This document shows, piece by piece, positions 27,858-30,021 of a stretch of DNA of 64,000 nt. The stretch is from positions 1,116,001 to 1,180,000 of the forward strand of contig CATOSD010000001.1 of assembly GCA_951812395.1 (NCBI GenBank), given 5' to 3'. Made by a program: the position numbers and the translations under genes. Under the pieces are notes generated by a model. It was given only the letters and a program-made list of their open reading frames with translations. It did no database searches and was not told the DNA's origin. Position 1 is the stretch's first letter. Each line of letters begins with the position of its first letter. The DNA is from an uncultured Dehalococcoidia bacterium (GTDB lineage Bacteria > Chloroflexota > Dehalococcoidia > Lucifugimonadales > CATOSD01).

Positions 27858-28051
27858 GTGCGGTAGCCTCCGCGTAGTCCAAAATTCGGCTCAGTGTGCG
27901 TCGTGGCCGTTCAGCCGACCATGCCGCGGCCCAACTATAGCACAGTTACAGAACGCCCCCAATCTCCCGAAGCACGGTCGCCAGACGTTCTCGATTTCCC
28001 TGCCGTCATCCCTTCCTCCCCCGTCCACGCCATTCCGGCCCATACTCTGTC

Positions 28052-28080
28052 GTCATTCCGAGCGCAGCCGAGGAATCCAA
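28052..28080 (+). repeat. dispersed repeat GTCATTCCGAGCGCAGCCGAGGAATCC, copy 2
   Basis: Second copy of the repeat at 25821-25849. It lies in the 346-bp gap between the thioesterase gene and the IS1380 remnant; otherwise the gap holds only the left end of that element. Confidence 0.7.
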
Positions 28081-28203
28081 AGACACCGCCCGCACCCAAA
28101 TCCACCGCCTAGTTGCAAAAGAAGGCCTCGTTGGAGCCGGTTGTAAAGCCGGCTATGATGGTAGCTATCAACAACAACCCATCACCAACGAGGTGCGACT
28201 GTT

Positions 28204-29310
28204 ATGCAGCATGCAACGCTTCCTTTCCACTACGCAGAGGAGGACGAGTCCACGGGGATGACGGCGTTGTCGTGGTTGCCGGCATACCTGGACTTGACGT
28301 TTGTTGCCCGACTGGGGGCGTCGGTGCGCAGACACGTGGGAGTGAGAGAGGGCGCCCAGGGATGGACGGACGCCCAGATAGTGGTGGCGCTGATGATGCT
28401 CAACCTGGCCGGCGGGGAGACGGTGGATGACCTGCGGCTGCTGGAGAAGGACGAGGGGCTGGGCAGAGCGCTGCTCACCGCGGAGACTCACCGGATGCGG
28501 CGGGCACAGCGCAACAGATGGCGTAAGGAGCGTAGCCGCACTGTGCGGTCGCCCACGGTGGTGTTCAGGTATCTGAACCGTTTCCACGACGAGGCTGAGG
28601 AGGCCGGGAGACGGTCTCGCAAGGCGTTCATACCGGCGGCCAACGCCACGCTGATAGGGACGCACAAGCGGCAGGCGTGCTACTGCTACAAAAAGCACAA
28701 GGCGTACCAGCCGCTGACCACCTACTGGCATGAGGCGGACCTTTGGACGGGATACGGCAAGAACAGTCCCGACTACAGGTTCATCGCGATAAGGGAGCGT
28801 CTGACGAACCCGCCGATGTTCGACGTGGACGGGGAGAAGTTGTCGGTTCCCGTTATGGAGATGGGGGATGGCAACTGGTACAAGGTGACGGGGATGGTGA
28901 CGAACCGAGAGTTGCCTGGGGATGAGCTTGTCCGGTGGTACAGGCAGAGGTGCAGCAAGAGCCTGCCCTGAGCCTGTCGAAGGGGTGAGGAGGTGCATTC
29001 GGTGCTGAAGGAGGACCTTGCGGGGGGCAGGCTGCCGTCGGGGAAGTTCGGGTCGAACGCGGCGTGGTGGGCGATAGTGGTGTTGGCGTTCAATCTGAAC
29101 TCGGCGATGAAGCAGTTGGTGTTGGGCGAAGAGTGGGTGAGCAAGCGTATGAAGGCGGTGCGCTTCGGGATCATCTGCGTTGCCGGGAGAGTGGTCAGAC
29201 ACGCAAGGAGGCTCATCATCCGTCTCGCGAGAGGGCGCCCAACCCATGGCCTGCTCGTGAGTGCGCAACGCAGGATACACGCTCTGGCAAACACGCCGCT
29301 CCGGGCCTGA
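28204..29310 (+). pseudogene. IS1380-family transposase, inactivated
   Basis: Reads as one frame from ATG 28204 to 29310 apart from a TGA at 28969-28971. IS1380 features are the N-terminal 'GWTDAQIVVALMMLNLAGGETVDDL', 'YCYKKHKAYQPLTTYWHE' and the C-terminal 'RELPGDELVRWYRQRC' then 'HSVLKEDLAGGRLPSGKFGSNAAWW'. The first catalytic Asp region has become 'AANATLIG', and the segment that should follow 'YWHEADL' with the second Asp is deleted. The TGA lies inside a 27-bp in-frame insert. Dead by at least three lesions. Confidence 0.85.
28960..28986 (+). repeat. 27-bp REP-like insert inside the IS1380 transposase
   Basis: AGCCTGCCCTGAGCCTGTCG followed by AAGGGGT splits the codons between 'QRCSK' and 'EEVHSVLKED'. 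Removing it restores the IS1380 protein in frame. The sequence resembles the common dispersed repeat CCTTCGACAGGCTCAGGGCAGG. Confidence 0.8.
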
Positions 29311-30021
29311 CTCTCCCCAGGAATCCACCCACATTCGAGGCGACTGAACCGAAGTCGCCGGCTTCGGTGTGTCCGAAAGCCGCCCAAATCCCTCCAGTTA
29401 CCCTATCAGGAACCGCCTCAGTCCCCCAGACCATGACATCTACCTTTTCTCCCTACCAACCTACCAGCCCTGAACCGATCTGACATCCCCAGCTAAACCC
29501 CTCCGCCGCCAGCAACCGCCCGTTAGACGGCGGATCTGGGCCGAAAGACCCCTCTTGAATCCGCCGTACATCCGGGCTATCCTGCCTTCTGCACGGGACC
29601 TACCCCGCCAATGGGCGACCACCGATAGCGTCTTTGGGAACTCCTCTGGTTCTGTCCCATTTCCGCCATGTCTTGCGGCTTTCGTTCTTGAATCTGCCCT
29701 CGTAAACGTCTCCGGCTGGGACCAACGCCAAGCCTCCCAGTTATGAAGTGGAACAAAACGGAACAGTTCTCCCGATTTCCCCCGCCCACAAGCGGCCTGC
29801 GGTCCTGCTACAGCCCCTTCCACTCTGATCGTCGGAGGAAGGTCAGAGTCCGCTCCGTACTCGATACGGGGATGGGGCAGATAGTCACGCTCGACTGCTC
29901 CGATGCGCGCGCACTCTTACAAACGCCGTGGGCTTGTTTGCTTTGGGCCGGGTTTGATGTAGAATTAGTTTAGCACCCTTTGACTTGCCGCGGCCGCGGT
30001 TCGACCCTAGACGGAGGCCGA
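29311..30021 (+). other. 711-bp intergenic region upstream of ftsH with conserved core motif copy 3
   Basis: No gene seen. Contains an ACCGAAG...CTTCGGT hairpin (29348-29368) near the IS1380 end, the core motif GTACATccGGGCTAtcCT...GGGACctACCCCGCC at 29566-29610, a GGAACAAAACGGAAC stretch (29747-29761) shared with the comB upstream region, and the ftsH promoter. Confidence 0.5.
29938..29965 (+). promoter_or_regulatory. putative ftsH promoter
   Basis: TTGCTT (29938-29943), 16-bp spacer, TAGAAT (29960-29965), 57 bp before the ATG. The -10 has five of six consensus bases; the -35 has only three. Confidence 0.45.

Follow-up and report, generated by a model that had tools for sequence, protein, structure and literature searches.

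A 24-bp dispersed repeat inserted in an internally deleted IS1380-family derivative of a Dehalococcoidia genome, and its occurrence in other genes and phyla

The small dispersed repeats (SDRs) of cyanobacteria, attributed to Elhai et al. in 2008, are reportedly 21-27 bp long, dispersed and nested in other repeats and in mini-transposons; they are said to insert without clear target duplication and to be confined to one cyanobacterial subgroup. SDR4-6 have a common predicted RNA secondary structure, and RNA-mediated insertion has been proposed for these cyanobacterial repeats. The palindromic elements of Rickettsia, known for in-frame insertion into protein-coding genes, measure about 100-150 bp and are not known outside Rickettsiales. 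SDRs are mentioned briefly in the sections of PMC3116915 and PMC2884548 drawn on here. The corresponding sections of PMC3733652 and PMC3116915 (2011) describe GTAG/CGTC REPs and REPINs as dispersed palindromic repeats of 20-40 bp, also present in genes; REPs inside genes were reported by Di Nocera et al. 2013 (PMC3733652), who also cite the Rickettsia palindromic elements.

The window analysed here is a stretch of 64,000 nucleotides from an uncultured Dehalococcoidia bacterium whose genome (G000; two contigs, C1 and C2) is 95.8% complete. It contains an IS1380-family derivative with a 24-bp insert, the S unit (AGCCTGCCCTGAGCCTGTCGAAGG); a second 24-bp unit, C (AGCCTGCCCCGTACTCGATACGGG), occurs in the same genome. 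By analogy, the closest kind of repeat would be the cyanobacterial SDRs: S and C, with 24 bp, fall inside the 21-27 bp class, and both are dispersed, nested within other repeats and mini-transposons, and free of clear target duplication. They differ from SDRs in their distinct sequences, in the presence of S in many phyla and not in one cyanobacterial subgroup (at least 116 stretches across GTDB contigs hold the exact 24-mer), in the apparent lack of a stable fold of S, and in a host genome where no reverse transcriptase was found. The likeness to GTAG/CGTC REPs and REPINs concerns size, dispersal, palindromic nature and presence in genes; S, however, is barely palindromic and stands as a solo 24-bp unit, not as a doublet, the GTAG/CGTC tetranucleotide is absent from both strands of S and C (read by eye), and neither a cognate RAYT in the genome nor the exact S core near any of 34 Y1 loci was found. 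The Rickettsia elements resemble S and C in their in-frame insertion into genes but are much longer. The host element shares its ends and a 5-bp target duplication (perfect in a sister copy) with the intact IS1380-family copies, and differs from them by the S unit and by large internal deletions. The literature collection, searched with the literal S and C sequences and the peptides that they encode, gave no match; in-gene REP insertions are already in print.

The derivative, internally deleted and non-autonomous, spans positions 28095-29540 of the window (plus strand; left end CCCAAATCC, right end GGATCTGGG), as defined by alignment of its ends with 23 intact copies and with the sister copy (L041). 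Its flanking 5-mers, CCGCA and CCGAA, are alike at 4 of 5 positions, and the terminal inverted repeats CCCAAATCC/GGATTTGGG, together with the short target duplication, place it in the IS1380 family. It is approximately 91% identical in DNA to the 23 intact copies of the same element in this genome, which have an open transposase frame of 508 residues and one of which scored 224 bits against the IS1380 model NF033539 (cut-off 180), bearing out the family assignment of the sequence-only reading. The truncated transposase ORF (28204-28971, plus strand, 255 codons) had no Pfam match of its own and belongs to the family through stretches 84-89% identical to the intact copies; the C-terminal rest of the frame after the insert (28993-29310, plus strand) matched PF13701 (DDE_Tnp_1_4, 49.6 bits). 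The span 28204-29310 originally given to the gene covers these ORFs, but not the whole IS. Alignment with seven intact copies revealed three deletion junctions on the plus strand: 12 bp at 28506/28507; 93 bp at 28642/28643, also deleted in L041; and 339 bp at 28742/28743, where the junction bases are slightly different in L041. About 444 bp of the coding region are missing in total, so the gene is not otherwise intact. The two larger deletions, which we matched to catalytic aspartates by assuming the D-D-E layout of the IS1380 family, would have removed the probable first and second catalytic Asp regions, respectively. Consequently, the window copy, with both deletions and an in-frame TGA, should be unable to encode an active DDE transposase with or without the stop codon, and the earlier view that the stop codon killed the transposase is unsupported. 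No plasmid copies of this IS were found. Directly to the left of the IS, at about 28047-28080, lies another repeat, GTCGTCATTCCGAGCGCAGCCGAGGAATCC, which we take to be a type common in environmental genomes.

Positions 28960-28983 (plus strand) are an exact gap in the intact copies and are present as the same insert in L041, indicating by alignment that this segment is almost certainly an inserted 24-bp unit. Placement one base to the left (28959-28982) is equally good, because a G stands both directly before the insert and as its last base. The insertion site reads AAG^GGTGAGG. All 23 intact paralogues lacked the insert, 6 of them reading GCAAGGGTGAGG and 17 reading GCAAAGGGGAGG; the window flanks are those of the GCAAGGGTGAGG allele, which tells what kind of copy received the insertion, and these empty paralogues, six of them with exactly matching flanks, show insertion and not the replacement that the sequence-only reading had named as the alternative. 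That reading was also right in that the repeat splits the frame after QRCSK, keeps it and ends the ORF with its own TGA (28969-28971). The length of 27 bp that it proposed has to be corrected to 24 bp, since GGT at 28984-28986 is a codon of the gene (the G of KGEE), and the AAG/GAG target duplication that it suspected was absent from the alignment with intact copies, which leaves no more than 1 bp (G) in doubt. In six-frame translation, the TGA frame was the sole frame of S with a stop (5 of 6 open), and C had no stop in any (6 of 6 open). With up to 3 mismatches allowed, the S core matches the window four times, once exactly, where chance would give 0.32 matches.

The sister copy L041 (near C1:702,000) has the large deletions and the 24-bp insert in common with the window copy, to which it is 95% identical over 1354 aligned bases. 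It lies in different surrounding DNA, where its 5-bp target duplication (TCTCC) is perfect. Since both copies have the insert, it was gained before they diverged; judging from the alignments, either the derivative transposed non-autonomously once it carried the insert, or the insert was already present in a common parent. Compared with the window copy, L041 has three 1-bp gaps, indicating that the open frame up to the insert in the window is probably due to chance. Other arrangements of the IS observed in this genome were two MITE-like derivatives of approximately 470 bp consisting of ends only (L044 540-1007 and 5180-5648; C2:176,539-177,006 and 181,179-181,647), and three head-to-tail pairs of intact copies (C1:1890377-1893773, C2:755049-758440 and C1:1688197-1691586) with about 350 bp between the ORFs.

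S and C are dispersed in this genome. The 14-base S core had 13 exact matches and 39 at up to one mismatch (8 for the reversed control), and C had 30 matches when up to 3 mismatches were allowed, with none in the control. The two units have a common 9-bp head (AGCCTGCCC) and different 15-bp tails, and lie mostly in the tail of an abundant REP (CCCTTCCCCCTCGCAGGGGGAAG; 303 matches with 3 or fewer mismatches and 0 in the control). The REP tail, GGGGGAAG^GTTAG^GATGGGGG, offers two AG^G sites; among the loci examined, 72 REPs had a readable tail, 57 empty and 15 carrying S, C or both, a sample biased by the many loci picked using S or C as bait. Flanks were counted at 30 loci from the 39 S matches, 25 of which held the full unit: AG preceded S in 21/25 cases, with a G following as well in 20/25; for C the values were 23/30 and 20/30. 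The AGG background was 0.018 per site (30 own-genome loci). In the window itself, one diverged C-family unit with 3 mismatches (29847-29870, plus strand) follows the IS about 300 bp downstream and lies in what remains of a REP tail (...GGTCAG|unit|GATGGGG; L101). Three loci (L090, L020 and L028) are paralogous REP composites, and the S+GTTAG of L020 is missing in L090, a difference that appears consistent with slippage between identical AGCCTGCCC heads. Compared with shuffled sequences, S folded no better (z +1.1 to +1.9; +1.1 with flanks) and C folded better (z -1.5 to -2.3; hairpin -2.3 with flanks). The prevailing strand of the abundant REP switches along the contigs (on C2, mostly plus up to ~0.39 Mb and mostly minus from 0.49 to 0.80 Mb), as if its orientation tracked replication.

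The exact gain of 24 bp was observed in the window IS and in a second IS1380-type gene of the same genome (L079, C1:1188564; 53 bits, below the cut-off). Alignment of L079 with L252, a 71% identical homologue from a different genome, showed one single, exact 24-bp gap at the unit, reading CAG|C unit|GTG against CAAGTG. A CHC2/primase-like gene with an in-frame C unit (L089) was considered as another clean insertion and rejected as a 24-for-6 change; its paralogues have 6 other bases at the unit, and it was therefore excluded from the clean cases.

Exact S is not restricted to this lineage. The phyla inferred for the 80 loci listed include Chloroflexota, Acidobacteriota, Bacteroidota, Pseudomonadota, Nitrospinota, Actinomycetota and others, and exact S is also present in the named isolates Sphingopyxis panaciterrae DSM 27164 and Paenimyroides ummariense DS-12. 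Among the 83 occurrences of S in the matches listed, the next base was G in 80, and the preceding bases were AG in 32 and GG in 21, indicating that AG is a preference and not a strict rule. Removal of the unit restored an inverted repeat of at least 8 bp at 9 of the 79 distinct S sites among the matches listed (80 of the 83 had enough flank, minus one duplicate or N-containing site), compared with a mean of 0.8 and a maximum of 3 in 200 re-pairings of the flanks. The number restored was 9, 10 and 9 when 22, 23 and 24 bp were removed, respectively, so that 22 and 24 bp are indistinguishable by this measure.

Among the matches listed, 26 frames containing S were coding-like; the 20 long ones scanned gave a Pfam match in 16, and in about eight of the scanned frames the unit lay inside or between the domains of one protein. 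An exact insert of 8 residues, PSTGSGQA, was found in the PNPase of an Anaerolineae MAG (L148) compared with solved homologues (two alignments) and in the GltB of a Dehalococcoidia MAG (L155) compared with a solved homologue (one alignment); neither insertion site is AG^G. A formamidopyrimidine-DNA glycosylase frame (Fpg, L175 1547-2536) carries two units in tandem (PSAGSGQAPSTGSGQA), with a 17-residue gap. No clean 8-residue gap was seen in the alignments of an aconitase (L191) and a SerRS (L139). Phages were considered as a vehicle and rejected: viral contigs hold exact S in 3 stretches and exact C in 1, too few to build a case on. In the comparisons G005/G042, G022/G055 and G014/G049, the core was counted 0 times in the few-contig members and 5-16 times in relatives, from the same genus or family, whose assemblies are fragmented, a contrast that could reflect repeats, real differences or contamination.

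The mobility of the repeat that the sequence-only reading had proposed is supported by the exact 24-bp pair L079/L252, by the palindromes restored on removal and by the 8-residue inserts in two enzymes; its opinion that such evidence is rare finds no support, with several cases in this analysis and REPs inside genes reported in the sections of PMC3733652 drawn on here. The insert is present in two IS copies, the units have a flank preference, and the exact 24-mer occurs across phyla; S is in all likelihood a recurrently mobile unit. The best explanation of the whole, which we consider probable, is that the mobile 24-bp S was inserted once in an ancestor of a deleted IS1380-family derivative, at AAG^GGTGAGG, in one orientation and without target duplication, and that the derivative bearing the insert then transposed, presumably with transposase acting in trans from the intact copies, giving rise to two copies with the insert.

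S and C would then be cassettes landing mostly after AG and before G, and their movement would involve a trans-acting activity nicking or joining single-stranded DNA. The clean DNA cases (the window IS, L079 and the REP tails) all involve a unit of 24 bp, a single orientation with respect to AG^G and a target duplication of at most 1 bp. A^GG on the top strand corresponds to CC|T on the bottom strand after a one-base shift, and TnpA-REP (RAYT) enzymes cut C|T according to the part of PMC8266576 used here, which makes a nicking enzyme of the HUH type the most attractive guess; a single-strand mechanism of this type can only be put forward tentatively. At present, this genome probably lacks the enzyme that moves S. 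No Y1_Tnp (PF01797) was found in it, with control genomes positive, and among the 59 genomes of the order, this one included, Y1_Tnp was present in 5 and missing in 54. The 17-base core occurs in 25 of these 59 genomes, 4 of which have a Y1 gene, one of them below the cut-off; in 50 S-bearing genomes of other groups among the matches listed, Y1_Tnp was present in 33 and missing in 17. The exact S core (TGAGCCTGTCGAAGG) was found near none of the 34 Y1 loci of the order and of the other S-bearing genomes, and loose variants were found near three. RVT_1 (reverse transcriptase) was absent from this genome and present in 3 of the 59 genomes of the order. With neither Y1_Tnp nor RVT_1 in this genome, the mobiliser may have been lost or may belong to another family.

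In the classical alternative, S is a REP and is moved by a REP-associated Y1 transposase encoded in the same genome. Such a system would fit the lack of target duplication, the single orientation of S with respect to the host REP, the location of insertions inside hairpins or next to them, and the C|T site on the bottom strand, which is where TnpA-REP cuts according to the part of PMC8266576 used here; we nevertheless consider it unlikely, with no Y1_Tnp in this genome, a Y1 gene in 4 of the 25 genomes of the order that bear S and none in 17 of the 50 S-bearing genomes of other groups among the matches listed, no clustering of S beside Y1 genes, and no GTAG or CGTC tag in S or C. Insertion of a short RNA copy written into DNA is a somewhat weaker candidate still: the size of the units, their nesting in other repeats and the hairpin of C are reminiscent of SDRs, but reverse transcriptase genes are as scarce as described above and no significant fold was obtained for S. 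Illegitimate recombination or template switching, by which S would have been copied from a composite REP into the IS through the microhomology AG / GGTGAG, draws on the resemblance of the IS target (AGGGTGAGG) to S-carrying REP tails (L025, L030) and on the slippage between unit heads seen in L090 versus L020. It is, however, difficult to reconcile with independent events giving exactly the same 24-bp unit in two families, with L079, which has only AG and G in common with typical donor flanks, and with the recurrence of the 24-bp length in other phyla, and we regard it as improbable, on a par with the resident Y1 transposase. Homologous recombination from a composite REP was rejected, the shared flanks seen being only ~2 to 9 bp, and manual inspection led us to reject an IS110-type insertion with a duplicated CT core, since CT is missing from the left junction of the C unit.

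Two further alternatives concern the insert itself, and both are extremely improbable. An ancestral insert lost from the intact copies would account for its presence in both deleted copies, but the site is empty in all 23 intact copies, which represent two diverged alleles and keep the 508-residue frame open across it, and S is a repeat found elsewhere. An assembly or library artefact might be suspected from core counts that look higher in fragmented assemblies of relatives; against this, the genome studied is in 2 contigs and has diverged S variants in many places, S is also present in named isolates, and it occurs in two IS copies whose flanks differ, evidence by which we judge an artefact at the window locus refuted.

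Together, the filled and empty IS copies provide a clean reference for the boundaries of the unit, which are usually hidden by palindromic repeats, and such boundaries are a handle for finding what moves S and C. The wider pattern of S and C is more interesting than the single insertion. One possible reading, itself rather doubtful, is that S and C are cross-phylum mobile cassettes of 24 bp, eight codons long, with a common head and exchangeable tails, moved by an enzyme other than a RAYT or a reverse transcriptase. If this were true, they would have spread through housekeeping genes as 8-residue inserts, and if 24-bp units move by themselves, they would be among the smallest mobile elements. 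The length of exactly eight codons lets the units cross genes without breaking the frame and, if mobile, such frame-keeping units would give rise to loop insertions in the enzymes of diverse bacteria.
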